Source of the DNA: Ascidia mentula
Lineage: Eukaryota; Chordata; Ascidiacea; Phlebobranchia; Ascidiidae
Direction: 5' to 3'
DNA: 64,000 bases
NCBI GenBank assembly: GCA_947561715.1
Contig: OX387202.1
Location: 20,659,001-20,723,000, forward strand
Shown here: positions 8,086 to 57,776 of the stretch, piece after piece
How positions within the stretch are numbered: the stretch's first letter is position 1
Layout of the letters: every line of letters starts with the position of its first letter
The notes under the pieces: generated by a model
What the model saw: only the letters and a program-made list of their open reading frames with translations
What the model was told of the DNA's origin: nothing
The model's database searches: none
Translations under genes and position numbers: made by a program

Positions 8086-11000
8086 TTATTCGCATTTCAC
8101 TTTCATCTTAGAACTCATTATTCCGCCAAATGAGTTTTTCCAATAATACCAACTCATAGTGTTGTGAGCAGTAGAAGTTCTCGACCACGGACCATTGAGG
8201 CGGGAATATGAACAATCACGATGCCACCAAGCTCCACGACCCACAGCACAATAACCTCCTGACCACCTGCAATTATAATTAAGTCGGTTGTCAACAACTC
8301 TGTGTTACAACTTATTTAAACTCAGTTAAAACTTGTGTTTAACTAAAACTTTAACGCAACCGCCTGTTTCAGAGCAATTGATTTTTACAATTGTTGATTT
8401 AGGGTAGGCGGTTAACTTTGTCAACGAAAATCAACTATTTGAGGAAATGCATTTCATCTTTTTTAAAACAACTCGATTTACTTCGTTAGTAAAACAGAAA
8501 TATAATCAGACACGTTGTATCATTATTACTCACGTATCACGGTCTCTGTTGCGTGTTGAAAATCTCATCCCGTTTAGACTGCCTGACAAATCAACCATGG
8601 AATCTCCTATGTTCCCCGAATATCCGGATATAGTAATTGTGTAAGAACTTCCTTCATCGCCAATGCTGAAAGTACTGAAAACAACAATGTCATAATGTTT
8701 AATTTAATGCAAAGTAATTTAAATAACAACGGACAATTTGTTGTTTTAAATCAATCCGCTTACATTGGTTTGTTGCTCATGGAAATGATTGTTAAACATA
8801 AAACCCTTTATGACGTAATAAACGACATGTGTCATACATTGTGTTGTGTTGTGTGGGATAATTATTTGTCAACTAAGCAATAAACACAGAGTGGGATTGG
8901 AAGTTTTCAGAAGGAAACCCAGTTATTTTTCAACTTTAAGTTCACAAACGACTGGAGGATTACAAGGAGGCTTTATTGTAGCTGAAGAACAAAGCGGATA
9001 ATTCTAACTTTCCAGTCAAGATGCAACGTTTTGGCAAAGGTCAGTACTTGGCACTCAAGATTTTACCACAAGGACTTGGGCAACAACGACCGCATAAACT
9101 CGTCTGGGCAACAGATTTTCCTTAACCTTTTTTAAGTGGTTCTTAACCTTTTTTATCTCATTTCCTACTTCCAGTGTAAACGGAATCCTTATTTCCCACT
9201 GGTATTTACATTTTTTAACTAAGAATTTAATTATTGTATTTTCGTTATATCTGTTATACTTTTTTAACTTTTTCTGCCGCATGGCATTACCAATTACCAA
9301 TAAGTGTACAACACACAGTGAATACAGATCATTATATTTCGTTTACAACTACTTTTGTGTATTTCGGTGCCGACCAATTATCCACCTACAACCCTAAAAT
9401 TTCCCACCGGATAAGAACCACTGGCCAAGGAATTAACTCTGCAGGCCAATGCACCCATTTTCTTGCATAGAGACCCAACAATATCCAATCAACCACGCAA
9501 CGACCAGCAGCTAACCCAGGGGTGGGCAAAGAGAACACAGAGTGTTTACACTATACAACTTATACACTGACAATCAAGTTGCGCCAGCGTCTTACACGTC
9601 GCGATTACGGGATATTTGTTGCCTCATTCAAAACATTGGGAGCCGAGGATGTTGGGCAGAAAATCGAAATTTCAAACACTGGATTATGCATGTGTGTTAG
9701 ATGGAGAAAATAATAACCATTTGATCCCATATATCGATGTGGGACACAGCACTAATATTCACTGGATTGTTGCCATCAATTGTCAAACGGTTTGGCCGTG
9801 GTTAATTTCGCTTGAACTGTCTTCCAGATGCCTATACGTTTCAGGAGATTTGGAATCAAGGAAAACAAAATTTTGTGCAGCCACATTCTCTAAGCGCAAA
9901 AAGGTGGCGTTCGACCCAATCCGAGCCCCACTGAGCTCGGTCCCGGCAATCCGCGACCAAGCGATCGCGCAAACCTCAAGAGCGGTGATGTGGGGTCGTT
10001 ACGAGTTGATTACCAACCCTATGTGTGTGCGGTATCTAAACTTTTTGTTTTCATAATTATTCCGAACCGAGTAAATGCATTGAAACACAGCAAGAATATT
10101 CTGTGTTGCTTCAAACTTAAAACACGAATTTTGTGAATCTGACGTAATAAGGGGGGTATTTCCCTAATGTCTTTTTAGATTTTGTTAGTTATGACGACAT
10201 GATAGCATCGGGTAAATTATCGTTGGAACAAAGGCATTAAATTGAAAACGTTAAATACGTCATAGTCTTACCTATACTCGGCAAAACCTTGACCTCCGGA
10301 AAAATCCTGAAGGTCAACACGAAGGCGACATCTAGTGGACGCATTGGTGATTTGATGCAGTTTCTCCAAACCTGATAAAATTTGTTGGTTGTAATAATAT
10401 TGCTGAAAACACTGGAATTTAAATTGGATTAACTGATACTGTTATATTGACTCTAGTATTGTTACGTAGTTTGCTTGAAACGTGTTGTTTAGTTCCCCTG
10501 TATATAAACTGGGTGTGTACAAGTTATAACAATGTGTTCAGTAAAACAAACCTGGAACTCCTGTTGCTGCCACAGACATATTGCAATTTAAAATGTACCG
10601 CTCTTCTGGCATAAAATATACGTGCTGTATTTTACGACGTTTCGTCTGCCATTCAGCGAGACTTCATCAGGTATTGATATCGCAATTTCAAAGTAAACTG
10701 CACTAAAACATTCAGGGGCACACAAAAAAAAGACAGGTTGGCACCGCTTGTCAGATCACGTGACAGAGGCAAAACACGAAACACTGCGGGAGGCGCAACA
10801 GTTACAACAAATTGTTATAAACTGCCGGAAAGTAAACACAGTGTTCTTTGTCGTTGACGCATCCACTGTTTTTGTGAACGTGAAACGACTCAAGAAAGAG
10901 CCGCTTGGTGTGGTCCAACTCCTTTTCCAGAACTTGGAAAGGGTTTTATCGAAGGCAACTTCGTGTCGCAATGTCACTGCATGCTTGGCCAACGCAGTCT

Positions 11001-13816
11001 TGCTGGCATCTTTCGATGCGACATCACGGCGATGCTCTTTCAGTCGCGTCTTAAAGGCCCTTCCGGTTTCGCCAATGTAAATACCAGCGCAATATTTGCA
11101 TGGTATTAAATAGACCATTCCCTTTGGCTCGGAAGCCTCCGTAGCAATGGGTCGTGAAATTAGATTGCCTAGCGTTGTATGGGGCTTAGTATAGATTTTA
11201 ATGCCTAATCCGACATCAATCTTCGCAATGTTTCGTTAAGGCCAGGGTTGAAGGGAATAACAACTGCTCCGCTAGTGGGCGTTTCATCCTTACGGGTTAT
11301 TGCCAGTATATTTTGAGCGTGCCATAACAGTGGTGATTGATAGGGATACCGGTACATTGGTGAACAATGACACCACATCAAAGGATACCATGCTGTCATG
11401 TTGCTCCACTCGTAAGCTCCGTACCTCGACTGCAAACTCGAGTGAGTTTTTCACATGGTGCGGACTATTGCCCAACAAAAGGAGAGATTATTTTAGCATT
11501 CTTGAGTCGCTTCACATTCACAAAAACATCGGATGCGTCAACGACAAAGAACAATGTGTTTACTTTCCGGCAGTTTATAACAATTTGTTGTAACTATTGC
11601 GCCTCCCGCAGTGTTTCGTGTTTTGCCTCTGTCACGTGATTTGACAAGCGGTGTCAACCTGTCCCTTTTTCTTTTTGTGGTCCTGAATGTTTTAGTGTAG
11701 TTTACTTTGAAATTGCGGCATCAATACCTGATGAAGCCTCGCTGAATGGCAGACGAAACGTCGTAAAAATACAGCACGTATATTTTATGCCAGAAGAGCG
11801 GTACATTTTAAACTAAAACAAACCATTATTCAAAGTTTTGCAACATTTGTACTTAGTTAAGGAATGCTTTATTGGAATACAAACCCATCCAAAATTCTGT
11901 TGATAGATCCCCAAACCCGTTCTTGTAATCCACCCAATCTCTATCGAAACTAACAGATCCATCATAACGACGCTGGAACACCTGGTATTTATCAAGTAAA
12001 ACGCTTGACACTGATTTTCGGCGAATTGGTCTAAAAAAGTTAGATGACCTCCATGTCAATATATGACTTTTCACTTTCGTGTGTAATTTCCTGACCTTTA
12101 GAAACAACACAATCTCGGGCGTATTGTTAAGTATTGTAGCGTGAAATCGTAAATTACATGGCGTGCATAATCACCTCGCTTACCCAACTAAGCGCTGGTG
12201 CCAGGGATTGCCCACCCCTGTGTTAGTGATATTAACCACAGTATGAATACCTGCCAGCCATCTTCACAGTAAACTTCTTCTCCAGATCTGAGACTTTGGC
12301 GACCTTGAAATGGGGAAGTTTTGCAAGATTCGGGATGCACAAATTCGTGAAGATTTTCCAGTCCTACAGAAATACTGTGATGAATTTTGGTTGGTTTCAA
12401 TCAACGGACGCATGAAATGGGTTGAGGTTTTAATATAAGGAGGTTGTTGTTATCTGTTTCCTGCTTTATGTTGATATGCCGACACATGTGGAGTCAACAA
12501 ATTTACGATGATTTTGCTAAAAATGTTTTTAAAATTTTGATAAATGTAATAAATTAGTGGCGGCTAACCAGAAGTGAAATGCTTAATGTAGGATTATCCC
12601 CATTGTGCGGTTATCTGCTGAAACTTCTGACTAATGATTAAGTACGATGATTCGAGATATACTTTGTCCCAATATATTCTGTGCCACATGAATGTTTTAC
12701 TTTTCGCATTGCGATTCAATCCCATGTATGGGTTTTGAATTTTGGAAAACATTTATATCTTGTTTTTTTTTTTTTTTTTTTCACCGCACCGGGATTTGAA
12801 CCCAGGATGTCCTGGGCACGAATACCGATCAGGTTTTCTTCTTGGTATATGTGGGTCGGGCGCTTGACCAATGCTGCCAATCACCCGCCGCACATTTATA
12901 TCTTGTTGTTGCACATAATCATACTTTAATGCTCCCTAGCGTCGTTGGTGGCTATGAGTAACTTGGTTTCTGTGTGTTGCGTGAATTTGTGAGTGACCGA
13001 GGTTTATTCGAGGTCGAAAAGTGTTACCAGTATTCAATACAGGTTAGATACAAGTTTTAAACTTGTCACGAGTATAATTATTAGGTGATTGGCAAGTACG
13101 CCGATAACCACACCACTAGGGGCAGAAAGGACTCCTGACGGGTATAGATTCTAGAATTTGTTAACTTGACACAAACGTGAGAAATCAATTTAAATAAAAC
13201 TAAACTCAACTGTTGGAAGCGTTACTCAGTTGACCTTGCAGTTGATCCACTCTGTTCGACAACTCTGTGAATATAATGTTCGATGTGTGAGTTGACATTG
13301 CATGTTAAGTGCATGAACTTAACTGTTAGATGTGTGGTTCTGCTCACTCTGCAATTGATCCACTTTGTTCGACAACTCTGTGAATAAAATCTTCGATGAA
13401 TTTACTTTAATATGATTTTATGAGAGTTCAACGTGTAGGGGATTTGTTGTACTGTTGTGTTTGTATCAAATATCTATCTGTACTGCTTGGTTTGTTAAAG
13501 TTTCCTATCCAATAATAAATTTTGTCGAAAAGTGTTTAGAGAAGAATCTTATACCTGTAACAAGTCTCATCAAATCTTCTTTGCCAGCCACAGGTCCTTG
13601 GTCTCCCTTTTCACCTCGGTGACCTTGAGGTCCACGTGGTCCCATCTTTCCTGGTCTTCCAGTCTCTCCTCTGGCACCTTTCAAGCCGGAATGTTCTATC
13701 TCTAATCCTTGTTCTTGTCCGTCACAAATGGAAACAACTCTGCATACTTGTTGTTGTTGGTGAGTTATGACAAGATGGCCGACCAACAAAACTCCAAACA
13801 AAATAAATTTCAACAT
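8086..13816 (-). CDS. Ficolin-like secreted lectin (collagen + fibrinogen-related domain)
   Basis: Minus-strand exons: 13816-13555 (ATG), two 30-base micro-exons 13377-13348 and 13264-13235, then 12363-12251, 11981-11885, 10371-10272, 8674-8534, 8266-8086 (TAA). The frame joins in phase throughout, giving 317 residues (297 without the micro-exons), close to the usual ficolin length. Residues 1-18 form a signal peptide ([16 protein letters not shown]). Cys25 and Cys31 resemble the N-terminal cysteines that link ficolin chains. About ten Gly-X-Y triplets span residues 44-75, then a short coiled neck, then a 210-residue fibrinogen-related domain ([34 protein letters not shown]). Ficolins bind acetylated sugars and trigger complement through MASPs; this role is inferred. 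The domain start (ESCKTSPF to EDGWQ) is shorter and less typical than in the paralogue at 51903-57776. A Penelope-like element sits in the intron between the second and third domain exons. Confidence 0.85.
8534..8674 (-). other. Fibrinogen-domain exon, sequence-divergent between paralogues
   Basis: This exon encodes the GYSGN(I)GDSM to [14 protein letters not shown] region, where known fibrinogen-related domains place calcium-site and ligand-pocket residues. The counterpart (52351-52494) is one codon longer and differs at about ten residues, although the long intron upstream is almost identical in the two copies. Confidence 0.8.
10640..10670 (-). ncRNA. Hammerhead-ribozyme-like motif in left arm of Penelope-like element
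   Basis: On the minus strand CTGATGA (10670-10664) is followed by a stem whose ends pair GTCT with AGAC, then GAAAC. This is the conserved hammerhead core with stem II. Penelope-like elements are known to carry hammerheads. Stems I and III were not resolved by eye. Confidence 0.5.
11728..11758 (+). ncRNA. Hammerhead-ribozyme-like motif in right arm of Penelope-like element
   Basis: CTGATGA (11728-11734) and GAAAC (from 11755) flank a 20-base hairpin region. It is the inverted partner of the motif at 10640-10670, with one change weakening the outer stem (GCCT instead of GTCT). Confidence 0.45.
12763..12893 (-). repeat. tRNA-derived SINE
   Basis: Read on the minus strand, a tRNA-like head has an A-box-like stretch (TTGGCAGCATTGGTCAAGC) and a B box (GGGTTCAAATCCC), followed by a run of A (the T run at 12763-12781). 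The cloverleaf is too degenerate and the spacing too long for a working tRNA. The same family occurs at 37675-37774. Confidence 0.75.
13235..13264 (-). other. Candidate 30-base micro-exon of ficolin-like gene (coiled neck)
   Basis: It is bounded by an acceptor (ATTCACAG) and a weak donor (GTCAAC) and encodes [10 protein letters not shown] in phase 1-1, so it can be included or skipped without shifting the frame. The leucine/valine spacing fits a coiled coil, as in the neck between collagen and fibrinogen domains. It duplicates the unit at 13348-13377. Confidence 0.5.
13348..13377 (-). other. Candidate 30-base micro-exon of ficolin-like gene (coiled neck)
   Basis: Acceptor TTATTCACAG, donor GTGAGC, 30 bases in phase 1-1, encoding [10 protein letters not shown]. 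It is nearly identical to 13235-13264, suggesting exon duplication lengthening a trimerising neck. Confidence 0.55.
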
Positions 13817-13824
13817 TTTCAAAC

Positions 13825-14008
13825 AAGCTAGACTTTGAAAATCTGTAAATAGTTGCTCAGTCATCACATGGAAATTAACAAAGTAAACGCCAACGTTAAA
13901 TTTGCACCAAAATTACCTAATTAACAACTACACTGAAAATATGGAAGATTCACTGAAACCTGCTGGCGAAAATCAATACACATTTATGCTGCGTAGATGA
14001 AACAAACT
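13825..14008. repeat. Direct repeat left of the 14 kb insertion
   Basis: About 184 bases just upstream of the ficolin-like start codon, repeated in direct orientation at 14851-15032. It probably contains the original promoter or 5' leader of the ficolin-like gene. Confidence 0.8.
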
Positions 14009-14057
14009 TGGTAATGTAAGGCTCTTCTGGCAAAAAGAAAAACTTGTTAGGACGACG

Positions 14058-14088
14058 TTTCAGTCGTTATTCAACTGACCTTCATCAG
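14058..14088 (-). ncRNA. Hammerhead-like motif, left arm
   Basis: Minus strand: CTGATGA, a 20-base hairpin that pairs with single-base bulges (GTT/AAC inside GTC/GAC), then GAAAC. Confidence 0.45.
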
Positions 14089-14512
14089 GACAAGTGAAGT
14101 AAACGCCAACACAGCGATAAATAGAAACGCGTGAAAAACGGGGAGGGGAGCACAAAGAATTGAAAATGGGCGCCAACAAGGAACGGTGCCGGGGTCTAAA
14201 GCACAGTTCCCTGAGGTACGCAGGACCATCAGCACAGAGTGCGTGTCGCGCAGACCGTTTATCAAATTACGATAAACGGGTGGAAAGAAGGTTTCCCTCT
14301 TATCATTCAGTGCAGATTTATGTGCATTTTATCCACAGACTCAATAAACATTCTCTTGTACCTGTCCTTTTCCCGGTCCAGAATTATTGTACCTTCAAAA
14401 TTGACTGTGTGTGCTGTTTCTGCCACATAATGCGTTTTTTCGCTTCTTTCCCCCTTTGTACCTTTTTCACGCGTTTCTGTTTATCACCGTGTTGGCGCTT
14501 ACTTTACTTGTC

Positions 14513-14543
14513 CTGATGAAGGTCAGTTGAATAACGACTGAAA
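14513..14543 (+). ncRNA. Hammerhead-like motif, right arm
   Basis: Plus-strand partner of the motif at 14058-14088: CTGATGA at 14513-14519 and GAAAC from 14540. Confidence 0.45.
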
Positions 14544-14594
14544 CGTCGTCCAAACAAGTTTTTCTTTTTGCCAGAAGAGCCTTACATTACCATG

Positions 14595-14790
14595 TACACG
14601 CACTATTTCGACCTGTAAGGTCTCATCAGTGCAGTTGTTGAGTGGCACTGTGCTAGCTGGTAGACTAGCGGTCACACAGATTTCCACTTTGTGGTACCTT
14701 TCGGTCAACGTCGATCTGTTGGGTGCCCTATACTAGGTACCGAACAACAGAGACGAACCACTGTGGAGCGCACTATGGCCAAACGGATCT
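14595..14790 (-). repeat. Short interspersed repeat with hammerhead-like core
   Basis: On the minus strand this starts with GCGCTCCACAGTGGTTCG and ends with the hammerhead-like core at 14606-14629. Related copies on the plus strand lie at about 31763-31960 and 63251-63448, downstream of both USB1 copies. It may be a retrozyme-like or SINE-like unit; no protein is recognisable. Confidence 0.6.
14606..14629 (-). ncRNA. Strong hammerhead-ribozyme-like core
   Basis: On the minus strand CTGATGA is followed by GACCT-TAC-AGGTC, a perfect 5-bp stem II with a three-base loop, then GAAA. This is the best match to the hammerhead core in the window. Confidence 0.6.
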
Positions 14791-14850
14791 GCTCTCCAAT
14801 ATTATGGCTTTTTTTTGCACATACAATGTAAATGATGAATGTGGACTCTG

Positions 14851-16008: not shown

Positions 16009-18579
16009 TGCATTTATTCTGGCTTTGAATTCTCGCTCCCTTTAATCGGTGCAATTTGGGTTGGTTATGGAACAAGACGCAGTTAAACTCAGTGCAATTT
16101 AAGCTGTTCTATCTGAATACTAATGGTTGACACAGAATTGAGATGAAATAAATATGTTGGATGACTTGGACGGTGGCAAAAGCCGCTTAAATATACAAGT
16201 TTTACATGTGTTGCGACTTATATGCCAATTATGAGCCTCAATCCGGTAATTAACAATATTATTTATGATCGATGGGAAATCCTATTTGATTAACGAATTT
16301 GACATAAGATCGCACGTGAGTTCTAATTGTTGTGTTTTCCTAACCTGACTTTAATTGAAACTTGATGCAAACATTCCAACAATATTCATTTAAAATGAAC
16401 AATTTTGGACACGAAATTAACATGCGCAATTATACCAACGCCAAACTGAGTGAATTTACGCCCAAACGCACAGACAAAATTGAACAGAACCAAATCACAA
16501 AACCGATGAACTGAGATGAGCACAGTACAGCAGCGCTGCCCTGCCTCGGTCCTCAGCTAAACGCACACGGAAAGTTACAAAGAAAGGTCGGTTACTGAAA
16601 GACGATGAAGGACAGTCACATGGGAAAACTTAAAGTCTCAAAGCGACCAAGTCACTTGAGATTAATATGACGCAAAACAGCTGTTAAACCATATCACACA
16701 AAAGCCAAAAAAAGACACAAATCACGTGAATGGTCAGCTGTTGCTATCGCTAAATTTTGAAATGAAACCCGTTTGCCAAGACGATCTAAAAATACCAATT
16801 ACTCAACCCAGTGGACTGAGACGCCAAAATGACAACTGGCCATGCAACCTTAAGTCCATTAATGCAACCGTTGACATGTAATGCAAAATCACGTTACAAC
16901 ATGTACATATTCAAATGAAATATTACACACAAATATTTTCGTATCTTGCTCCTGGTTTTCAGGTGAATTTCTTTTCTCACTTTAATAAAACCAGGCGGAT
17001 GACGGATCGCTAATATTAAAGAACTTATGCGTGTTTCTTTTCCTAATCCTATGCTTTCAAACAAACTCTTACAAACGCAACTATTCAGATACCAAAAAAT
17101 AAACCTTTTAATGCTTTGTCTAATATTAATATAATGACTACAATCGCTCAACATCCTATAGAACGTTGGCAACACAATTGACGTCACGACACAAACCTGC
17201 AAAAAAGTGGGGAAATGCTTCGTTGGCGCTGAGCGTGAAGTCAATTCAAGTTTGTAGTGAGGCGTGAAGGAATGTGGTTGTGGGGCAAATGGAGTTGCAC
17301 TGGTTTCACTAAATGGGCGCCTGACTTTATTAAACGGACTAATGTTAAAAACGACAATAAAACGTACATACAATTCCAGTAGTAATACATGCTTTCGCAT
17401 AGCAAGGCAGGATCGCCCCACTTGGGGGGCAGTGAAAGCGTGATATTACTTCTGCGTTGTCTGATTACTGTGGTGGAGATCCTCTACGCATGTGAAGGTC
17501 GCCTGACAATCCAGCTCGGCTGCAATGCCTTGGCTGCGAACCCTGTGAACTTTACAATTCCAGTAAACGCCCGACACTAAAAACAACCGTACAGCTCAAC
17601 GCCCATCTCAAGACTAACGGGTCATACACACAGCACTTCTTGCACCGGCTAATCAACCAATCAACTGTATGTTTAGGCAGGGGAAGATACAGGTTCAATC
17701 GATGGTCTCAAAGTGGTTGATGCTTTATTAAGTTGCGCAGTCAAACTTGAGACAAGCAAAACACTCGTTCATGAGGCGGCAACCGCAACACGAGAAAGGC
17801 AATGGCGCGCTTCGATGCACAGGCGAACACTGTGGTCGCCATCATCTAAATTTTACTTTTCACCCCACCTAAAAGATGTGCACAGAGGTAACAAGTTGCC
17901 AAACACTCTTTCCCACTGGTTGATTTGGTCACACACACATATATATATATCAATGGATTGGTTATTGTTGTATCTGCTTTGGTGATGCTAGCTGGAGCAC
18001 AGGAAGGCGCATCTTACCGATATTTTGTTTTTTCAGAGTATGACGTTTATCAGATTACCAACAGTCCGAAGTAGTTTTGCCTGTATTGATGATCACTTAC
18101 CATTGCTTCCAGAATAATGAACACAACATTACGGCAAACAACCATATTTGAGGGTTTTGGGATAAAATGGCCTCCAATTTAACATATTTAGGTTTAAGTC
18201 CGTCACCACTAGTTACTTGGAGATTTGATGTAATGTAAATCGTCCCCTACTGTGTGAATTTGCCCTCCCTTGCGGCATAACGATAAGAATCCAACTTCAT
18301 GCTCCGGGAACCGTTGCTTGTGGACAATATCAGCATCAGCACTCGCAGGACAAAGCACAGCCTGCTGTTCCTTCATGAAGTCGATATTGAGTTGATTTAT
18401 TAGCGAAAGATAATTGTAGACCCAACCGCTACCTTTCGGTTAAAAGATTGAACACGAATTTAAACAACAAAACGAAGTTCTCCATGTAAGCGAAAAGTTC
18501 AATAAATACTGCAAGTATATCAACCTGCGCTGCTCTGGAGGGACCGACAAATCTGTCCCATCTTTTCAAATATAAAATA
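16009..18579. repeat. 2.57 kb tandem duplication, unit 1
   Basis: Direct tandem repeat with the unit at 18580-21120, differing at scattered single bases and small indels (a few percent or less). Both units begin near TGCATTT and end at AAATATAAAATAT. No transposase, reverse transcriptase or known protein was recognised. A 175-codon minus-strand frame (16894-17421) is present in both units, but most base differences within it change the amino acid, so I do not call a gene. Confidence 0.9.
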
Positions 18580-21120: not shown

Positions 21121-21243
21121 AAAAAAATATGATTTAACATTCCAAAAGACTTTAATTTGGGCCTCATCGGAGTTCCAACTAAACTACGTTATTTTGCATT
21201 TCAGGCATTTCGCATGCTGTCCATAAAACAACTGGCTGGAACA

Positions 21244-45600: not shown

Positions 45601-48600
45601 CTCTATTTCACTACAGACGCAGACAGGTTTGTGGGAGATTGTGGTGTACGGGAGGAAGCACACCCTCCGACTCAGCACGGAGGTAGAGGAAGACGCGAAC
45701 ATCTGGAGCAGTGAGATCCAGGCTATGATAGATGGACAACCTCTGATTATCACCAAAACAAAGATCCTAATGGACAAGATCAAGGTACAGAAGTGTAGAA
45801 TTGAAACTGAACTTATTGCTTGGAGTAATCTGCTTACAGGGCAACTATTTCGATCTAATATGTCGGTAATGTGTCTGGTGATTATCTTGCCACTTAGGTA
45901 GCCAGGCGAAAACCTCATTGCTTTGAAATTACCTGCTTAAAAAGCACATCAGGAATATTATTACAATGTTGTTAACAAATCGACTCTGCCCAAAGCATTT
46001 CATTCTTTCACTTATATTTAGCATGTTGCCCATAGTGTATGAAAATATGGCTAAAAATTTGTGTATGTTGCAACAGCGTTCAGACGACAATGAAAAGGAG
46101 ATCGACTTGATCTACAAGAGGAACCCAATCTTCAGGCAATCAAGCGAGCCTTTAAGATCCCCTTTGCTATTCCTTCCATACGAACAGGTGACCCAGCAAT
46201 TATTACAACTATCCGTCCCAGAATCCAATACTAACGCAAACTTAATAGTGCTGCAAGTATCCACGTGGTTGTCATAAAACCACGATGACGTCAACATCAT
46301 CTTACCCGAACTATCTGTGACGTAACATTGCTCATATTGTTGTGTTGCTAACGAACCAAGTTGATTATTCCAAAAAAATTAAAAAATTAGTAGTTTCGCT
46401 ACTTAGAAAAAAGGGCATAGAAATCATAATCAACCGTTGTTCGCTCACAGGTGCCCTCTCGTGACGACCACTACACGTTGAGGGACGAGGCTGTGAGGAT
46501 TTTAACGTCCTCCTTCAAATGGATGAACGGACTTTTCAGAACATAGAGGAGGAAGCGAAATCACTCCAGGTGAAAAAAATAAAAAAAAATCGTTTTTAAA
46601 TTTTGCTTTTTGATATTTCTCGAATTCCCGCCTGTAATTGAGTTTCCTCCCCTATATATTTGCACATGTTATGACGTTTGTCAGGTAATTGTGGATCTTT
46701 CTTTGCAATGAGTGGGGAATGATGTTCACAGATCACAATTTATATCAAAGTTTTACTTGACGTCAATCAGCATTCAAAACAGACAATCAAAAAGCATTGC
46801 GACACCGCCCAGCCAACAAACCATCTATCTGTTCGTTCCAGGCGATCATGCGAGTGTGCCACGGCTCCAAGCTATTCCAGGACGAGCTTTACCTCCAATT
46901 AATCAAACAAACCGCCATCTACACCCTCCAACTCACCACAGACGAGCAAATGTGTGACCAGCTTCATGTGACGTCATGTCCGCATTACTGGCATCTCATA
47001 GCTTGTATGTGTTGCGCGTACCACCCATCACGTCCCGTGCTGTCTTACCTGAAGCTGCATCTGAAGAGGTATGACGTCACTAAGTGTGTAAATAACTTCG
47101 TTATCCAATGTAGAGTTCGCGGAACCCTTGACACAACAAAGGTTTACTAAATTTGGGGGTTCTTGGTTAAGATAAACAATCTTTATAGGTTTCGCAGACG
47201 AAAAGTTTGTGAATATCTGGTCTGAGCGCTAATTCTAAAACATCTCTAACCCCACTTTTGTTGGTAAACCAGAATTTATTGCTTGCCTCAATGCTTTGTA
47301 TTCCCAGTAAATTTGAAACAAAATGCTCGTTTAATGAGAGATAAGCCAACAAATATCTTAAACCTTAACGTCCACCGACGATTTTGCCGGGCCAAAGCAC
47401 TTGCTACTAAGCAGTAGTTTTGCATTACAGCGGTTCGGCTTATCATACCTCGCGCTGTTGACTATACACTTGAAATGTGCCTAAGATACCTGGGAATCTG
47501 TACAGTAATGATTATTCGGGGATCCCTTTTCACCGTTTGTTGATTGACATCCGTTATCAGGGTACAAGAGCGATTTCCTGTCACTCTTGGTGGAGCTTAT
47601 GCTGAGTTCGGTGAAAATGCGCTGAGTCAGCAGAGGTCACGTCAACGTGAGATGGTTCCTTCCATTGCTGAGATTTGTGCTGTGCTGAAGATGAGGGACC
47701 TGGTCACTGTGATTAACTGCTATGGTGGCGCAACATGCGAAATCTACATCAACTTTGGCAAACGGTTTTTATTCGGTCTCAATTTGATTTTTTCGGTAAT
47801 TAAGACGTTCTCATAAATTACGTTAAATTCCAAACTCGCCACGTAGATCTGCCCCACTTCGAACACATCCTTTCATCCCATGCTAGTTATCCGATCCCAT
47901 GGGGGCCTGACTCGATAAACTGTGGTTTTATCGGTGCCTGTGCCATTTTATTCCGCATATTTATTGTTCGCACGCGTTAAATTCGTTTTTGTTCAAAACA
48001 AAATTAAGTTATATTTGGACGTTGGCACCAACCGCGCATGAATCGTATTCCACAACTAATCGTCATTCTTTAAATCAGCTCGTATATTGATAGTTAGTAA
48101 AACAACAAAGAATTTTAATTTGTGGACGAAGCGAATAGAGGCCGAAACGTTAAAATTTAACAAATCGTTTTTGTCAACGAAGAGTTTCGTCAGATTTTAA
48201 TTCTTTCAGGGGTCGAGTCTTTTTAACACGTTCCGGAAGAGAGGGATAAAGAAGGTGAAGGAGGAAGGTGAGAGCGGTGAGATGAAGAGGACTCTCTTCC
48301 TGGAGGAACTGCAGGATGTCAAATCAAACGTCCTGGATAGATGGAGGAGATTGAGAGGAATGCCGCAAGAAGACGCCGTGGTCAGTATCACAATAATCTC
48401 ACTAAACAATAAGACTGGAGTTTTGTGTTATTGGATGTCGGTGCATCTCTGCCCGTGGTTGATATTTATTGGCATTGTATTTGGCTGCTTGATGTTTAAA
48501 TATTATTCGCATAATTTTATGTTCAGCATATTTCGCGTTCTCTTCATTCCGTCTAATTCATTTTATCTCAACAATTTGTTTCAGGCTGAATATGTTAACC

Positions 48601-49320
48601 TTGCACGTCGATGGCCCGGATACGGATCCTACTTGTTTAAAGTTGAAAATCACGACGCGCAGTTCGGTCAAACCCTTCTCACTCTGGCGATATCGGCGCA
48701 GGGAGCAACTGTGTTCAAACGAGGTCACTCACAGTCCCTGGATCATTTCTCATATGAAAAGTAAGTTTGATCGAACACAATGGTTCGTTTTCAACGCGGG
48801 AAGACACGAAACTTGTTGGAGTTATTGGCTCTCAACGTTTCTGCTTGTAGGTCTTATGAATATAATGCAGTTTATTTTACGAAACATAAACTTACCATAA
48901 CCATAGTAGTGGGGTAACGTGGAGTCCATATTTCCCTGCAGTTTATTTGGCGTCAGAAAACAAAATTGTTGGTGAACTACGGCCCAAATGTTTGATTCGG
49001 TCAAATGCCCACTTACAAATAAAGTTTTCAAATAGAGTCTCGGGTTTGCTGCGGCCGGTTTCGAATTCGGCTCTGACGTTTGAAAAGTCTCAGAACCACT
49101 GTTCCAAACAATTTGACAAGATTTTGCAGCTACATTCCTTGAGTTGAACATGTTATTGTGTCTTCCTCTCAGGATCCAGTCTTTCGGAGCGGGATCTGCG
49201 AATGTTTTCAGACTTCAGACCGAGTCAAGAGGGGACATTTCCTTCACCGCAGAACAAGTTAATGAGATTGTGAAACTCATGCGAGCTTACGTCACCGCCC
49301 TCTTCCGCCGAAAGCATTGA
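36668..49320 (+). CDS. MYO10: Myosin-X, longest copy (copy C): mid-motor to C-terminus, internally broken
   Basis: Motor exons: 36668-36814 (switch II, DIFGFE), 37228-37328, 37793-37952, 38065-38133, 38271-38353, 38412-38517, 38580-38660, 38896-39020, 39228-39339. Neck: 39546-39706 and 40044-40241, three IQ motifs. Charged single-helix/coiled-coil: 40570-40647, 40894-40965, 41236-41373, 41569-41781. Acidic linker: 41928-42026, 42468-42545, 42946-43024, 43237-43376. Split PH1/PH2: 43724-43893, 44036-44239, 44349-44482, 44584-44813. PH3: 45055-45258, 45617-45784. MyTH4: 46077-46187, 46451-46569, 46842-47068. FERM: 47561-about 47754, 48210-48380, 48585-48760, 49173-49320. This is the filopodial, PIP3-binding motor. 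The ATP-binding half of the motor is absent. Frames fail at the motor/neck junction (39339/39546) and in 46451-46569 (one base short), and about 1.5 kb of FERM is deleted. Confidence 0.9.
37540..37790 (-). repeat. tRNA-derived SINE copies in a MYO10 intron
   Basis: The minus strand of 37675-37774 has the same tRNA-like head as 12763-12893 (GGGTTCGAATCCCGG B box; AACATTGGTCAAGCGCCCGA). A more degenerate second B box (GGGTTCGAGTCCC) lies at about 37570-37590. They sit between motor exons and end just before the acceptor at 37793. Confidence 0.7.
38134..38216. repeat. Short GGTTGAGGCTG-type minisatellite in a MYO10 intron
   Basis: Imperfect tandem copies of GGTTGAGGCTG / GGTTGAGGTTG start directly after the exon donor at 38133. 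Confidence 0.8.
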
Positions 49321-52300
49321 AAGTTGACACCGAGCAATTTTATTGCGTTCAGATTTTAACGAAACTTTAGTATTTGTCGTTCTAGCCACAAACTTGAATG
49401 TTAAAATCAGGGGTTTTCCACAGGGTCACCATATGAACCACAGCGATCTATATCAATGGCTTCCACATTACCACACAATATTACCTTCGCCGATGCATGT
49501 TTTTGTGACATTACTCAGCAAAAACTTTCGTCGGTTGGGAGGATTCACAGAGTTAACCAGGGTGTCGTTGTACCCGAACGAGCTCGCGAAATGTTCCAAG
49601 TCTTTCACGTCCAGTAAGGTTTATTTACAGGATCATGTATCTTATAGTTTCGGCATACACGCTTACACCCACTCTCAATACTCCGCTCCAGTGTTTAAAC
49701 CTTGCAGTTACGATTTTCATTTGTTTTGCCACTTTCACATGTTTTTTACGCTAGTCATATTCTTTCTTGTCCTGAAGCACTTGGTGATCTTTTCTGTCTA
49801 TTTTGTTTTCGGGAAACCAAATTCCATAACCATAGAAATCACAACCAGCGATAAAGTTGTCAGTCCCACTCATGGCTGTTCAACTTGTGATTTGTAATTT
49901 CAATATTATTTCACAATTTTTTGCCGCAATCATGAACCACACCCAAAACATGTGTTTCCGCCTAATTTTAACATCTAAATAACGTCATCAATACGACGAC
50001 GTCACCACGTAACATGAAATATTCCAACCGCTTTCGTACCGATTGTTGTTAACTCTTTTATCCTTAGACTGCCTATCTTTTAACATTGTTATCTGTCTAA
50101 TATTATTTATTGTACATTTGCATCAATTTATTGCTTCTTCGATTTGGTTGTTTTATAAACACAGTTCCTTGTATGTCTGCGGCAAGCCAGTTGATGCCTG
50201 TGATGTCACAATTGCTTATTGTTACGTTCCAATTACTGCTATTGTTTCACTGTCGCTCGGTTTTAAAAAAGAAACAAACCCTGAATTGGGATCGAAAAGA
50301 AATTCGTATTTTGAGATCTTGTCGAAAAATTCTGGTTTTTAACATGGCCTGAAACTGACGTCATGATCCTTGGTGTTTGGTGGCTGGAAATTCTATTTAT
50401 CGAGTAATTTATTTCGAGTTCAGGAATCAATTCTACAAAACTTCACTCTCTCCATGCAATCTACATTCTGCCATGGAATGCAACCGGCAGACGCATCAGA
50501 CGCGTCTGTGTCCTCCACAAACTGCTGTGTTAAGTTAGGTTATTACACAAGAGTGTATAAGGTCTAACCTTGGGAGGTGACAAGAAAATGATTTGTAAAT
50601 TAAAGCCAAAGCTAGTATGCTACTCATGCCGAAGCAAACGTTTCAAACACCACTGTGTTCATCATCAGTGTCAAGTAAGAATGAGTTGCAGCAAGGTGTG
50701 TGCAGAGGGAGGCAGGTAACTGAACAGACAAAAACAACAACACAAATGGAACACGTGACAGACGCCACTCGAAGACCCACGGCCGTTACGTCATCATTTG
50801 GGCTGCAATGAGGACCTGGGTGTTGACAAGAAACCTTGTTACACAATTTACCCTCACATAAAACCTTTCCCATAAGTCGGAGAAATGGCGCCGCGATATC
50901 CGCGCATTTCTGCAAATGTTAGCGGTGAATTGGCGTGAATGCATTTTTGGGGTTTATCAGAGAAAGTCGAACTGAACTGAATCAAATTTTCTGACATCTT
51001 CCAATCAGAAATCAACTGTCAAATCTGATGGATCAATGTTTATATTTACATGGATTATCAACATAAAGCATGGAAACGGTTGCATGTGATTTTGCAACAA
51101 CGACATGATATACAAGGAATGATAAAGCGGAATATGTTGTCAATATCTAATTGACACGTTGACATAATTCTATGGAAGAAGTGGCATCCGAAACGCACAA
51201 AATGTAATAATATGTAGTGTCGACGTCATATTTGCAATTATTATGTTGTGTTTTTCAGGCATCAACCGTTTTTTTATTAACGTCGGATAATAATCACGCT
51301 GTAAACCAAGTTTAACTCATTTACGGCGAACGTGCTATTCGTTCGTTGACACTTCCAGCAACAAGCCGCCTTTTCAAATGTGTCACGTGGTAATCCGAAC
51401 TCAAATAACCCGGTATGCATTTTCTATATAGGTCACATGTCTTTTGCGTAAAAAAGATACGAAGGGACAGAGGACAAAGGACATATAGGACAGAGACTTT
51501 TTGTACGCGTGGTTTGTAACGTGTTATTGTTAGTCCTCGTGCGCTTGTTTATTATGTATTAAACTGATCGTTGACTTTGGGTTTGATAGCAGCCTTTTTA
51601 TCAGGAGTCAGATATACGGCAGTGTTATTATTTGTGTAGACGTTTTAAGTAACGCCCTACAAATACCATGATAATAACAAACATGCAGAAAGGTGAAGTT
51701 CGCTTTTAACACAAAAATTGTAAGGATTTGTGGAATAAATTCGGTTCGGTATAATTGCTTTCCTGTTATTTACGATTTAAAGCCTTTATCAAAACAGGTG
51801 AAAGTATTTACAATGTCTGTCAATAATTGTAAATCAACACAACGTTGCCATGGTAACTAACGACGCAATGTTAATTTTCGTCACTTTAAACCTCCCCAAC
51901 AATTATTCGCATTTCACTTTCATCTTAGAACTCATAATTCCGCCATGTGAGTTTTTCCAATAATACCAACTCATAGTGTTGCTACCAGTAGAAGTTCTCG
52001 ACCACGGACCATTGAGGCGGGCATTTGAACATCTACGATACCACCAAGCTCCACCATGGTTTGCAGCACAATTTCCTGGATACCTGCAATTATAATTAAG
52101 TCGGTTGTCAACAACTCTGTGTTACAACTTATTTAAACTCAGTTAAAATTTGTGTTTAACTAAAACTTTAACGCAACCCCCTGTTTCAGAGCAATTGATT
52201 TTTACAATTGTTGATTTAGGGTGGGCGGTTAACTTTGTCAACGAAAATCAACTATTTGAAGAAATGCTTTTTATGTTTTTTGACTCAACTCGATTTACTT

Positions 52301-54503
52301 CGTTAGTAAAACAGAAATATAATCAGACACGTTGTATCATTATTACTCACGTATCATGGTCTCTGCTGCGTGTTGAAAATCCTATCCCGTTTAGACTGTG
52401 GGACCAACCATCAGCCATGGAATCTGATATGTTCCCCGAATATCCGGATATAGTAATTGTGTAAGAACTTCCTTCATCGCCAATGCTGAAAGTACTGAAA
52501 AGAACAATGTCATAATGTTTAATTTAATGCAAAGTAATTTAAATAACAACGGATAATTTGTTGTTTTAAATCAATCCGCTTACATTGGTTTGTTGCTCAT
52601 GGAAATTATTGTTCAACATAAAACCCTTTATGACGTAATAAACGACATGTGTCATACATTGTGTTGTGTTGTGTGGGATAATTATTTGTCAACTAAGCAA
52701 TAAACACAGAGTGGGATTGGAAGTTTTCAGAAGGAAACCCAGTTATTTTTCAACTTTAAGTTCACAAACGACTGGAGGATTACAAGGAGGCTTTATTGTA
52801 GCTGAAGAACAAAGCGGATAATTCTAACTTTCCAGTCAAGATGCAACGTTTTGGCAAAGGTCAGTACTTGGCACTCAAGATTTTACCACAAGGACTTGGG
52901 CAACAACGACCGCATAAACTCGTCTGGGCAACAGATTTTCCTTAACCTTTTTTAAGTGGTTCTTAACCTTTTTTATCTCATTTCCTACTTCCAGTGTAAA
53001 CGGAATCCTTATTTCCCACTGGTATTTACATTTTTTAACTAAGAATTTAATTATTGTATTTTCGTTATATCTGTTATACTTTTTTAACTTTTTCTACCGC
53101 ATGGCATTACCAATTACCAATAAGTGTACAACACACAGTGAATACAGATCATTATATTTCGTTTACAACTACTTTTGTGTATTTCGGTGCCGACCAATTA
53201 TCCACCTACAACCCTAAAATTTCCCACCGGATAAGAACCACTGGCCAAGGAATTAACTCTGCAGGCCAATGCACCCATTTTCTTGCATAGAGACCCAACA
53301 ATATCCAATCAACCACGCAACGACCAGCAGCTAACCCAGGGGTGGGCAAAGAGAACACAGAGTGTTTACACTATACAACTTATACACTGACAATCAAGTT
53401 GTGTCAGCGTCTCACACGTCGCGATTACGGGATTTTTGTTGCCTCATTCGAAACATTGGGAGCCGAGCATGTTGGGCAGAAAATCGAAATTTCAAACCAT
53501 GGATTATGCATGGGTGTTAGATGGAGAATATAATAATCTTTTCATCCCATATATCTATGCGGGACACAGCACTAATATTCACTGAATTGCTGCCATCAAT
53601 TGTCAAACGGTTTGACCGTGGTTAATTTCGCTTGAACTGCGCAAAAAGGTGACGTTCGACCCAATCCGAGCCCCACTGAGCTCAGTCCCGGCAATCCGCG
53701 ACCAAGCGATCGCGCAAACCTCAAGACCGGTGATGTGGGGTCGTTACGAGTTGATTACAATCCCTATGTGTGTGCGGTATCTAAATTTTTTGTTTCATAA
53801 TTATTCCGAACCGAGTAAATACATTGAAACACAGCAAGAATATTCTGTGTTGCTTCAAACTTCAAACACGAATTTTGTGAATCTGACGTAATAAGGGGGG
53901 TATTTCCCTAATGACTTTTAAGATTTTGTTAGTTATGACGACATGGCAGCATCGGGTAAATTATCGTTGGAACAATGGCATTAATTTGAAAACGTTAAAT
54001 ACGTTATAGTCTTACCTATACTCGGCAAAACCTTGACCTCCGGAAAAATCCTGAAGGTCAACACGAAGGCGACATCTAGTGGACGCACTGGTGATTTGAT
54101 GCAGTTTCTCCAAACCTGTTAAATTTGTTGGTTGTAATAATATTGCTGAAAACACTGGAATTTAAATTGGATTAACTGATACTGTTATATTGGCACTAGG
54201 ATTGTTACGAAGCTTGCTTGAAACGTTTTGCTTGGTAGGCCTGTATATTTAACTCGGTGTGCGCAAGTTGTAACACTCAGTAAATGTTCAGTTGATGCAT
54301 TAAATTTAAAACCAACTATTATTCAAAATTTCACAGCAGTTGTAAGTTTGTATTTAAACTTGTAAGACGTTTAGTTAAGGATTGCTTTATTGGAATACAA
54401 ACCCATCCAAAATTCTTTTGTTAGATCCCCAAACCCATTTTTGTAATCCACCCAATCTCTATCGAAACTCAAAGATCCATCATAACGACGCTGGAACACC
54501 TGG
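45118..54503. repeat. Segmental duplication, block C
   Basis: Partner of 1-11985. Compared with block A it lacks FERM exons (about 1.5 kb) and the Penelope-like insertion, and retains about 200 bases near 51258-51464. Identity is high in noncoding sequence and drops in the two last lectin exons. Confidence 0.9.
49321..51902. other. Convergent spacer between MYO10 and the LCCL/EGF/fibrinogen gene
   Basis: Copy of 5707-8085. No gene is supported; the short open frames are not consistently kept among the three copies. Confidence 0.6.
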
Positions 54504-57500
54504 TATTTATCATAACCAAGGTAAGGTGTTCAGACAATTACTTGTCATGTAAACGACCACCGAACGCTTCCCAACCATTAAACTTAGGATACAGTTTCAG
54601 CCTCGAGAGGCAAACTTACCAGCCAAGCTCCACCATCCATGTCGCAAAATCCCTGGAAAGTCAGAGGAGAAGTTAAATTGTAGACTCCGCTTACGTTAAG
54701 GCCGTTTTGTAACGCGTCCTTGCAGGTTGGAAACGAGCCTATGTTTCGAACACCATGAACATTGTTAATAAATTGCATTTCTTTCATCCAAAGGAGAAAT
54801 TAAACACAATACTAAAAAATCTTACCTATATCGCAATGTGATCCGCTGTACCCGTGGGCACATGAACAATTGTAGGAGGTTTTTGTATCCATGCAAGTTC
54901 CATTGTTCTGGCAAATACCAGGATTTTGTGCACAGAAATCTGGATCTAAAAAGGAATCAAGTTTCATGATCTGAATTTGCATTCTTACTTCCAGGGAAGA
55001 GTTGACTTCACGGCCCTACACACACTACGGTGATAGATTGTTTAAAAGTGGGTTTTATTTAGTCCGTATTTCAATGATATTTACAGTCAGGCACGCGAGG
55101 CATTTTCGTTTAGCTGGTTGTCATGTAGGACAGCATGTGGCATCCTCAAATTAATGACATTAAATTTTCTCTTTTTTTCTACTGACCGGTTACAAATGCA
55201 TCACGGACTCAAACCGGTTCGCGGCCCGGAGGTTGGAATCCCTGTATTTGTATATTGTAAAAACGACGTCAAACTTACAACAATCAATGCCATCTCCGGT
55301 GTAGTTTGCGTTGCAAGAACATTGAAAACTGCCGACGGTGTTGATGCAAGTTGCATGTTGATGACAGTTGTGCATTACATTCGCGCATTCGTTTATATCT
55401 GAATATGATAATTACGATCAATTTCAGTGGACTGTCACATACTGAGTGGCATTTAGCTCCGAAGTAAACGCGAGGCATGAACTTCATTAAGAACAGCACC
55501 TTCAACACTGCTATAAGTGAAAGTTCGTAAGGCCGAAAATTCAGAACTATCAAATATTCTGCTGCTTAAACATGAAAAACAATACAACATGAAATAAGTA
55601 ACAGTTTCTTCCTGTTGGTTGACGTCAGCTAAGAATATATAGTCGCCAGAATCAATATGAGTTGTAGCGTATTATTTTTAGGCAGAATTTACCTGGCATT
55701 TTCAAGTCTTTTGCATAAACATTGTTAATAAATTGCATTCCTTTCATCCAAACAAGAAATCAAACACAAAACTACAAAATCTTACCTTTTTCGCAATGTG
55801 ATCCGCTGTACCCGTGGGCACATGAACAATTGTAGGAGGTTTTTGTATCCATGCAAGTTCCATTGTTCTGGCAAATACCAGGATTTTGTGCACAGAAATC
55901 TGGATCTAAAAAGGAATCAAGTTTCATGATCTGAATTTGCATTCTTACTCCAAGGAAAGAGTTGACTTCACAGCCCTACAGCACACTATAGTGTAATAGG
56001 TTGCGTAAAAAGTAGTTTATTTTGTCTGTAATTCGATTATAACCACAGTTAGAATGTGGCATTCCTCAAAACATGCCATTATTTTTCGATTTTCTACTGA
56101 CTGGTTACAAATGCATCACGGACTCTAACCGGTTCGTGGCCTGGAGGTTGGAATCCCTGTATTTGTATATTGTAAAAACGACGTCAAACTTACAACAATC
56201 AATGCCATCTCCGGTGTAGTTTGCGTTGCAAGAACATTGAAAACTGCCGACGGTGTTGATGCAAGTTGCATGTTGATGACAGTTGTGCATTACATTCGCG
56301 CATTCGTTTATATCTGAATATGATAATTACGATCAATTTCAGTGGACTGTCACATACTGAGTGGCATTTAGCTCCGAAGTAAACGCGAGGCATGAACTTC
56401 ATTAAGAACAGCACCTTCAACACGGCTATAAGTGAAATTTCGTAAGGCCGAAAATTCAGAACTATCAAATATTCTGCTGCTTAAACAGGAAAAACATTAC
56501 AACATGAAATAATTAACAGTTTCTTCCTGTTGGTTGACGTCAGCTAAGAAAAGATTGGCGCCAGAATCAATGTGAGTTGTAGCGTATTATTTTTAAAGCG
56601 TAATTTGCACTTTCAAATCGTTTACGATTTACTTGGCACATTTCTCTTAGTGCCAAATATTCCAGCTTTCAGGGCAATTTCTTACCTATTTCACAGTCTG
56701 ACCCGATCAACCCGGGGTTGCAAGAACAATGTTGGTCGTTAGCTCCAGACAAACATTCACCGTTGTTAGAACAAGTTCTCAAACAATCTTCATCTGAAAT
56801 ATTGGAAAACAAGCGTTATTTCGTTTATCACTTCTTTTCACTTTCAATCCCTGTTTATCTGTTAGAAGGCTTTTTGTTAACTTACGAGTGAACGAAAAGT
56901 ATTGACTTGATGAACCACACGATTTGCTGGTTACACCACCCTTGGTCGAACCAATAAATGAGCGTCTTCCGTTTCTAGAATAAAACGTCACGTATCCTCC
57001 ACTTCCTGAAAATATTCATGATTGATTCAAACAAACCACAAAGTGTTAATTACACCAACTTACGCGACAAGATACCAGCGTGAATGGCAGAGGCACAAAC
57101 CGAGGAATTCTTGTTGTACGAATTTGTTCCACAGACGTAGTTGGACGAACAACCAGGTGGACAAAATACATCAGTTACAGAAAACTCACTGTTTCCTGTC
57201 GTGCTACATTTCACTATATTTACATAAATAGTAATTACTTATTCTAACCAAAAGCTACCCGGAGTATAGCTTACTTTCAAATGTGTACGACCATTTTGCA
57301 AACGAACAAGATTTGCTTCTCACTCCGTTCCTGTCCAATCCTTTATATTCATGTATTGGATCACTTTTGTATACTTCAAAGTAGCCTCCATCATCTAAAA
57401 TATTGGGTTTGAGTTCATACCAAAGAAAATCCGGTAAACATGCCAGGGTACTGTCACTGTAACTTACTGTCCATCAGTCCTGCATGCATTGCAGCCAGAC

Positions 57501-57776
57501 AAAGGGGACCAGAGGCGTAATCATCACTTCCACACAAATCCGAATATTGTCTCAAGCAGTTGGGTGGGCAGATTACTTTTGAAATTGAGTGATTTAAATC
57601 TGATAACTTTGTGTCACACGTTGCTGTGGAAACGAAATATTTAGTGGACTTATAAGCAGTATATAAAAATTTTATTTGGTAAATTTGAAACGCAGCTTAC
57701 CTATCAACGAATTGCATTGATTCTTGCATTGCAGATAACAAAGCAGGAAAGCTTGCAAATAATACTTTAACATCAT
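51903..57776 (-). CDS. Secreted LCCL-LCCL-EGF-fibrinogen-related domain protein
   Basis: Fifteen minus-strand exons: 57776-57701 (ATG), 57623-57468, 57394-57275, 57213-57064, 57005-56886, 56793-56686, 56313-56194, 55905-55786, 55398-55279, 54945-54826, 54738-54620, 54499-54403, 54115-54016, 52494-52351, 52083-51903 (TAA). They give 616 residues. Layout: signal peptide 1-25 ([16 protein letters not shown]); two LCCL domains about 30-207 (CPPNC...CLAAMHAG and CPPGC...CASAIHAG); five EGF modules 208-403, two with the calcium-type start DINEC; fibrinogen-related domain 404-616 ([38 protein letters not shown]). Every exon up to the fibrinogen domain is phase 1-1, as expected from exon shuffling. 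It is probably an extracellular recognition or adhesion protein; ligand unknown. The last four exons are paralogous to those of the ficolin-like gene. Confidence 0.88.
54762..56549. repeat. Tandem duplication of an EGF + calcium-EGF exon pair
   Basis: About 54762-55636 and 55723-56549 match over exons and introns. Each carries one EGF exon (54826-54945; 55786-55905) and one DINEC-type exon (55279-55398; 56194-56313). The proteins encoded by the paired exons are nearly identical, so the duplication is recent and adds two modules in frame. Confidence 0.9.

Follow-up and report, generated by a model that had tools for sequence, protein, structure and literature searches.

Hypervariable fibrinogen heads on two kinds of stem in a predicted family of secreted lectins from the ascidian Ascidia mentula

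We analyzed a 64,000-nucleotide stretch of the Ascidia mentula genome, hereafter the window (C70:20659001-20723000 of a 195.8 Mb genome, with C70 taken as chromosome 6), that carries two genes ending in a fibrinogen domain. One has the collagen stem of a ficolin, while the other lacks it and has LCCL and EGF domains in its place, as identified with Pfam. From sequence comparison, we consider it likely that both are members of a large germline family of secreted lectins, in which hypervariable heads are carried on exchangeable stems and the ligand pocket is under selection. A stronger form of this reading, which we advance tentatively, is that well over 100 secreted lectins form a germline repertoire whose hypervariable pocket is spread by recombination between genes and whose stems, collagen or LCCL-EGF, are exchangeable. 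The parts are of known kinds; the variable pocket, the size of the family, and the two exchangeable stems are new to us. The original prediction for this DNA had recognized that the two genes share their last exons, which is correct, but the hypervariability of those exons, a new finding here, had gone unnoticed.

Two gene types share four fibrinogen exons

Both genes lie on the minus strand, and in each the splicing read from the sequence gives GT/AG borders throughout, consistent phases, and no internal stops. Signal peptides and coils were assigned by eye in both. The collagen-type gene (8086-13816) has 8 exons and encodes 333 amino acids, in the order signal peptide, collagen, two coiled-coil exons, and five fibrinogen exons:

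8086-8266, minus strand: fibrinogen exon 5 with stop, hypervariable ligand-pocket exon (gene model, variability)
8534-8674, minus strand: fibrinogen exon 4, hypervariable loop and calcium site (gene model, FIBCD1 alignment)
10272-10371, minus strand: fibrinogen exon 3 (gene model)
10587-11812, no strand assigned: insert in the intron between fibrinogen exons 2 and 3 (self-comparison)
11885-11981, minus strand: fibrinogen exon 2, the first shared exon, with acceptor 11981 (gene model)
11982-11993, minus strand: 12 nt of intron still matching the LCCL-type gene, with the joint just beyond (self-comparison, copy alignment)
12251-12363, minus strand: fibrinogen exon 1, A type (gene model, tree)
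13211-13264, minus strand: coiled-coil neck exon 2 (gene model, coil by eye)
13324-13377, minus strand: coiled-coil neck exon 1 (gene model, coil by eye)
13555-13816, minus strand: signal peptide (by eye) and collagen-like exon with PGKMGP (gene model, Pfam)

This is the domain order of a ficolin: signal peptide, collagen repeat, fibrinogen domain. Pfam reports Fibrinogen_C and a collagen match that falls under the curated cut-off (E 5.6e-5), although the 11 consecutive G-X-Y triplets are plain. The PGKMGP in the collagen stem matches the motif through which ficolins bind MASP.

In the LCCL-type gene (51903-57776), 15 exons encode 616 amino acids: a signal peptide is followed by two LCCL domains, each split over two exons, then by five EGF exons and five fibrinogen exons:

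51903-52083, minus strand: fibrinogen exon 5 with stop, hypervariable (gene model, variability)
52351-52494, minus strand: fibrinogen exon 4, hypervariable loop (gene model, variability)
54016-54115, minus strand: fibrinogen exon 3 (gene model)
54403-54499, minus strand: fibrinogen exon 2, with acceptor 54499 (gene model)
54500-54619, minus strand: 120-bp phase-0 intron holding the joint (gene model, copy alignment)
54620-54738, minus strand: fibrinogen exon 1, B type (gene model, tree)
54826-54945, minus strand: EGF exon 5 (gene model, Pfam)
55279-55398, minus strand: EGF exon 4, calcium-binding type (gene model, Pfam)
55786-55905, minus strand: EGF exon 3 (gene model, Pfam)
56194-56313, minus strand: EGF exon 2, calcium-binding type (gene model, Pfam)
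56686-56793, minus strand: EGF exon 1 (gene model, Pfam)
56886-57213, minus strand: LCCL domain 2, two exons, 57064-57213 and 56886-57005 (gene model, Pfam)
57275-57623, minus strand: LCCL domain 1, two exons, 57468-57623 and 57275-57394 (gene model, Pfam)
57701-57776, minus strand: signal peptide exon (by eye) with start codon (gene model)

Pfam identifies two LCCL, five EGF, and one Fibrinogen_C domain in this protein, bearing out the predicted order LCCL-LCCL-EGF-fibrinogen except that there are five EGF exons and not one. We know of no protein that joins LCCL-LCCL-EGF to a fibrinogen domain, and a search of titles and abstracts in the open-licence literature, which is weak evidence of absence, returned no description of LCCL, EGF, and fibrinogen domains joined together. 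EGF exon number varies among loci, from 3 in L033 to 7 in L031, while L041 and L042 jointly carry a consecutive run of 12 whose upstream end is out of view. Within the window gene itself, self-comparison detects a tandem duplication of an EGF exon pair (54754-56595, 91-95%).

As had been predicted, the last four fibrinogen exons are common to both genes and lie within one duplicated block. Over the genes, the colinear repeat pairs 7642-9819 with 51461-53639 (96.3%), 9894-10531 with 53639-54275 (94.4%), and 11853-11994 with 54371-54512 (95.1%). Downstream of the genes it runs to the start of the window, pairing 4151-7641 with 47760-51254 (96.9%) and 1-2660 with 45118-47754 (95.1%). The collagen-type locus has extra sequence relative to the LCCL-type locus at approximately 10532-11852 and at 2661-4150. 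The sequence GATAAATACCAGGTGTTCCAGCG occurs twice in the window and 0 times in 100 shuffles. Differences between the two genes are distributed unevenly: exon 3 has 1 mismatch in 100, exon 4 has 11 mismatches and 3 gap positions over 144, and exon 5 has 21 mismatches and 6 gap positions. Similarity ends just outside the acceptor at 11981/54499, where it had been placed, stopping 12 nt into a phase-0 intron with the match ending at 11994/54512. The N-terminal modules beyond this point had been called unrelated. They are not entirely so, because each closes with a fibrinogen exon 1, and these two exons are divergent copies.

The insert at 10587-11812, which the LCCL-type gene lacks, has inverted arms of about 0.31 kb (94%) and carries an open reading frame (ORF) with a weak, below-cut-off match to GIY-YIG; it is perhaps a Penelope-like element. 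Exons 2 and 3 are 1-1.5 kb apart in many collagen-type copies and 0.2-0.3 kb apart in most LCCL-type copies.

A genome-wide family with hypervariable head exons

Searching the genome with exons 2-3, the collagen exon, and the first LCCL exon returned at least 84 copies of exon 2, the exon-2 and LCCL counts being lower bounds. For the 84 exon-2 copies listed, the nearest same-strand upstream module within 9 kb is collagen in 38, LCCL in 24, and neither in 22; one of the 24 LCCL-linked copies has both modules. Among the matches listed, C70 carries most exon-2 copies, many of them at 19.5-21.0 Mb, and LCCL-linked copies occur on C1, C52, C69, C70, and C71. Haplotypes or collapsed repeats joined into false duplicates could in principle inflate such a family, given that ascidian genomes are polymorphic and that many of these copies are 92-99% alike. 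We find this scarcely credible. Copies can be told apart by their stems, inserts, numbers of EGF exons, and pockets, and the assembly was made from HiFi reads at 74x with a quality value (QV) of 64.9 and a single haplotype deposited (PMC11109543).

Exons 4 and 5 were each taken from 37 gene copies (10 LCCL-type, 24 collagen-type, and 3 unsure), the copies studied here having been chosen as best matches or picked from lists and not as a random sample. L3237 and L3265, whose head exons are the same as those of L3155, and C69_19445, whose exon 4 is damaged, were dropped before counting, leaving 34. The ratio of nonsynonymous to synonymous differences per site (pN/pS) is 0.31 for exon 2 (n=34) and 0.22 for exon 3 (n=26); for exon 4 it is 0.90 (n=34), and for exon 5 it is 1.47 (n=34). 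In exon 5, pN is 0.53 and pS 0.23 at the 14 columns whose entropy is 1.5 bits or higher, and pN is 0.012 and pS 0.073 at 43 conserved columns. The six variable columns of exon 4 form a loop, also variable in length, with pN 0.43 and pS 0.30. Because the entropy cut-off was chosen with the data already in view, the pN of the variable set is partly selected, unlike the whole-exon ratios. At the variable columns, themselves picked for variability, pN/pS comes to 2.3 in exon 5 and 1.4 in exon 4. Every one of the 34 copies has a distinct combination at the 14 exon-5 pocket positions.

This diversity is local. Among 14 long copies of the cassette, five 50-bp steps, all inside exons 4 and 5, show 9.8-17% diversity, compared with 0.5-7.8% for the remaining steps, and the 25 bases flanking exons 3-5 diverge by 2.0-7.5% among copies. 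No adenine-only signature was found in the variable codons, in which all four bases are present. In the intron between exons 3 and 4, the part at 53520-52471 has no Rfam match and differs mostly by 0.5-3% among copies, with one 100-bp part at 5-6%; the upstream part of the same intron differs by 3-6%.

A second cluster, at C70:16.87-17.98 Mb, contains by count about 60 last exons of a divergent fibrinogen domain, which we call B type to distinguish it from the A type of the collagen-type window gene. In 15 of these, pN/pS is 1.64 when every column is counted and 2.46 for the variable ones, and the flanks differ by 11-14%.

Variation of this kind might be the mark of decay, in a young tandem array under relaxed constraint with most copies non-functional. 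The copies are indeed tandem with inserts, and a few have stops or damage. Yet exons 5, 2, and 3 are open in 37/37, 37/37, and 29/29 of the copies examined, conserved exon-5 columns accumulate few amino acid changes for their silent ones, and the changes are concentrated in a few columns that largely occupy corresponding places in the second cluster, making decay a very improbable account. For exon 4, 37/37 copies pass a simple open-frame test, yet the C69_19445 copy is plainly damaged. Three LCCL-type loci on C70 at 3.155, 3.237, and 3.265 Mb (L061-L063, L067-L069), which encode identical exon-4 and exon-5 proteins, are probably recent duplicates.

Some variable positions fall on the ligand site

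To relate the variable columns to a known ligand site, heads were aligned to FIBCD1 with MAFFT, using eight ligand-site residues taken from PMC3908420, of which six could be mapped. Four of the six (Lys381, Glu398, Tyr405, and Asn413) fall on variable columns, when 15 of the 82 mapped columns are variable (hypergeometric p 0.009). The equivalent of Lys381 in tachylectin-5A (TL5A) binds ligand, with no contact seen in FIBCD1 (PMC3908420); leaving Lys381 out gives 3/5 (p 0.04). Tyr405, His415, Tyr431, and Ala432 are described as conserved in FIBCD1, TL5A, and L- and M-ficolin (PMC3908420). The acetyl-binding S1 pocket of ficolins is not kept in our copies, with the Tyr405 equivalent hypervariable and the His415 equivalent Ser in 29/34 and never His. 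Retained are the calcium aspartates (Asp393 equivalent in 34/34, Asp395 equivalent in 33/34) and the pocket cysteines (Cys401 and Cys414 equivalents, 34/34 each). FIBCD1 and TL5A have the same domain by sequence and the same aspartates and disulfide, but differ from the family described here in their conserved acetyl pocket and in their stems.

By eye, the variable columns of the A and B types largely correspond, for example at the equivalents of Phe404, Tyr405, Asn413, and Thr416; Arg412 is variable only in B and Asn418 only in A. That two clusters vary at the same pocket argues for selection on the pocket.

Heads sort little by stem

The head exons of the copies examined are mosaics, with little or no sorting according to stem. 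Eleven pairs with the same exon-4 loop differ at 9-14 of the 14 pocket positions, and six of these pairs cross stem type. Nearest neighbors in the variable positions are not stem-sorted (p 0.67 for exon 4, 0.51 for exon 5), nor are whole exon-4 codons (p 0.28); in these, in the cassette, and in the joint comparisons below, the 3 genes marked '?' or 'COL?' were counted as non-LCCL. When 14 copies, including 3 of the LCCL type, are compared along the 2.3 kb cassette, mean divergence is 0.0420 within types and 0.0428 between them (p 0.29), and the copy closest to each window gene shifts along the cassette. The exon-4 loop and exon-5 pocket are uncorrelated (Mantel r 0.014, p 0.41), while weak correlations appear between some blocks inside exon 5 (r 0.16, p 0.0015; r 0.10, p 0.039). 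Such mosaic heads, hardly sorted by stem, suggest exchange between genes. The pattern fits recombination or conversion across stem types, and a recent common origin of all cassettes followed by rapid local change would be expected to look similar.

The two window genes are not a special pair, a possibility that we considered and rejected, as each of them has a nearer relative than the other when the shared part is compared among 14 copies. The LCCL-type gene is 3.3% from another LCCL gene and 3.7% from the window collagen-type gene, its second closest; four copies are closer to the window collagen-type gene than its neighbor is.

A joint common to LCCL-type copies

We compared the intron preceding exon 2 in 37 copies (17 LCCL-type on four contigs, 17 collagen-type, and 3 unsure). 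The last 12 intron bases before the exon have a mean identity of 95% between types, whereas the 13 bases preceding them fall to 24% between types, with 91% and 96% within types. This break is found in 37/37 copies, so the joint is common to the copies and was not made by the duplication in the window. The proposal that a local segmental duplication had produced the new combination therefore fails: the same joint is present in 17/17 LCCL-type copies on four contigs, and LCCL is the nearest upstream module in at least 24 of at least 84 exon-2 copies on five contigs. The accompanying proposal of a recombinant gene holds, its joint lying in the intron that separates fibrinogen exon 1 from exon 2.

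Which part was replaced may be read from divergent relatives. L100, on C71, encodes a signal peptide, two LCCL domains, an EGF exon, and a B-type fibrinogen domain; L101, with an LCCL exon 1.2 kb upstream, has the same B-type domain, and L118, the one gene read from the B-type cluster, has a collagen stem. At exon 1, the window LCCL-type gene has 62-70% identity to three B genes, compared with 21-37% to three A genes. Its exons 2 and 3 instead match the window collagen-type gene (94%), L119 (86%), and the compared part of L102 (71%), with 52-55% identity to the B genes. In a quartet of the two window genes, L118, and L102, the LCCL-type gene groups with the B gene in 997/1000 bootstraps for exon 1 and with the collagen-type gene in 988/1000 for exons 2 and 3. 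A second quartet, in which three of the four genes are A type for exons 2 and 3, gives 1000/1000 for the B gene in exon 1 and 632 vs 368 in exons 2 and 3. In a third, the window LCCL-type gene groups with L102 in 845/1000 (exon 1) and 1000/1000 (exons 2 and 3).

As judged from these comparisons, the fibrinogen domain of the window LCCL-type gene is a chimera, with exon 1 of B type and exons 2-5 of the collagen-gene type, and the crossover lies in its 120-bp intron. It had been supposed that the N-terminal half was newly swapped in. This finds no support: a diverged LCCL-LCCL-EGF-fibrinogen gene has its own one-type fibrinogen exons, which would make the domain order older than the joint. It was probably the head, not the LCCL stem, that was replaced.

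A different history would make the two genes old whole-gene paralogues, each long equipped with a fibrinogen domain of its own, whose exons 2-5 were homogenised by gene conversion that was halted by divergent sequence upstream of exon 2, with no single exon-shuffling event. The mosaic pattern does show exchange, and beyond the 12 shared bases the intron and exon 1 differ wholly, as at a conversion boundary. Exons 2 and 3 of the LCCL gene, though, match the collagen type and not the diverged LCCL genes, which calls for at least one full replacement; given such a replacement, conversion and recombination differ in mechanism only. We regard this history as unlikely, albeit the most serious competitor to a transferred head.

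A model of exchangeable heads and stems

In our proposal, a hypervariable fibrinogen head (exons 2-5) would be carried on either of two conserved stems, one a ficolin-like collagen-coil stem and the other consisting of two LCCL domains with a variable number of EGF domains. An LCCL-EGF-fibrinogen gene of another type probably received exons 2-5 of a collagen-type gene through recombination in the phase-0 intron after exon 1, a transfer whose joint and chimerism are read from sequence and whose direction is surmised. Both kinds of gene would then have multiplied by duplication, while selection diversified the ligand pocket and kept the fold, the pocket disulfide, and the calcium aspartates, as codon statistics, position mapping, and conservation suggest. 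The signal peptides, recognized by eye, imply secretion. As soluble proteins, these lectins would most likely recognize a variety of microbial sugars, and what follows binding would be determined by the stem. Ascidian ficolins are placed in the lectin pathway of complement (PMC5465252, a review). On this view, binding by the collagen form would feed into complement, and the same heads, when on an LCCL-EGF stem, would be anchored on a surface or in matrix.

Several observations weigh against this proposal. The His415 and Trp443 equivalents are at non-variable positions, and the Tyr431/Ala432 loop differs in length and cannot be aligned, with variable columns 34 and 38 beside it. Whole exon-5 codons show some sorting by stem (same-type neighbor 0.794 vs 0.628, p 0.02), and the heads are not freely recombined, since 15/190 pairs of variable columns are associated (p <=0.01), mostly close neighbors. 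Only one of the three quartets is cleanly informative for both segments. The 845/1000 of the third fits an exon 1 lying outside the two sampled B genes, and by sequence this exon seems to have no special tie to the B-type LCCL gene. Some copies look damaged, including C69_19445, in its exon 4 and by a TAA in its collagen exon, and the exon-2 match at C70:20547720, which has a TAG.

The main functional rival to an immune role is self-recognition by gametes, in which the genes would be kin of Ciona v-Themis and their variability would serve self-sterility. v-Themis is fibrinogen-like, and its genes are highly polymorphic in an ascidian (PMC8849226). However, v-Themis sits in an intron of the PKD1-like s-Themis, and the three allelic pairs described, which belong to the egg coat (PMC8849226), contrast with at least 84 copies here. 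Of 11 PKD_channel matches, none lies on C70, which carries most of the listed family, a partial test given that one s-Themis lacks the channel domain. We think a gamete role distinctly unlikely.

Other systems resemble the proposed lectin family in part. Vertebrate and ascidian ficolins have the same signal peptide, collagen, neck, and fibrinogen-domain lectin head, but not the dozens of copies and second stem type found here, and two of the pocket residues that L- and M-ficolin share with FIBCD1 and TL5A (PMC3908420) are altered, the Tyr405 equivalent being hypervariable and the His415 equivalent mostly Ser. Fibrinogen-related proteins (FREPs) of the snail Biomphalaria are likewise a large, diversified fibrinogen-domain family, and EGF-fibrinogen forms exist there too. 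FREPs have IgSF domains and a relatively conserved fibrinogen domain (PMC7588048), whereas here the fibrinogen pocket varies, and no Ig domain, the criterion for a FREP, is among the Pfam matches of either window protein at E 0.1. Sea urchin Sp185/333 is also a clustered, rapidly diversified innate family; the protein is a different one and its diversity comes from the presence or absence of sequence elements and not from pocket codons. A separate likeness is to the LCCL proteins, which include cochlin, Factor C, and apicomplexan CCp and place LCCL modules on a secreted adhesive protein. For a hypervariable ficolin-like family in ascidians we found no description in titles and abstracts of the open-licence literature, itself weak evidence of absence.

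If the proposal is correct, the family would be a fibrinogen-domain counterpart of the variable and constant parts of antibodies in a chordate without antibodies. A lectin family that is hypervariable only in its pocket and carried on two stems would be a concrete candidate means of telling many microbes, or self, apart. The model is directly testable, as it concerns a small number of mapped positions in heads that are compact, expressible domains; RNA data (ERR10378036) from the sequenced specimen exist (PMC11109543, Table 1).

Other features of the window and genome

No known RNA element was found in the window (0 Rfam matches at the gathering score). Self-comparison identifies three copies of a 2.5 kb block (1-2526, 32752-35248, and 45137-47620), the middle of which contains a plus-strand ORF with a MyTH4 domain at 34379-34828. 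A 2.3 kb tandem duplication (16009-18290 and 18580-20858, 98% identity) carries a 183-amino-acid ORF without a Pfam match. Elsewhere in the genome, LCCL exons form dense arrays with a spacing of 0.5-1 kb at C72:5.12-5.18 Mb and C69:1.89-1.91 Mb, and these arrays account for the majority of the LCCL matches listed in the genome search.

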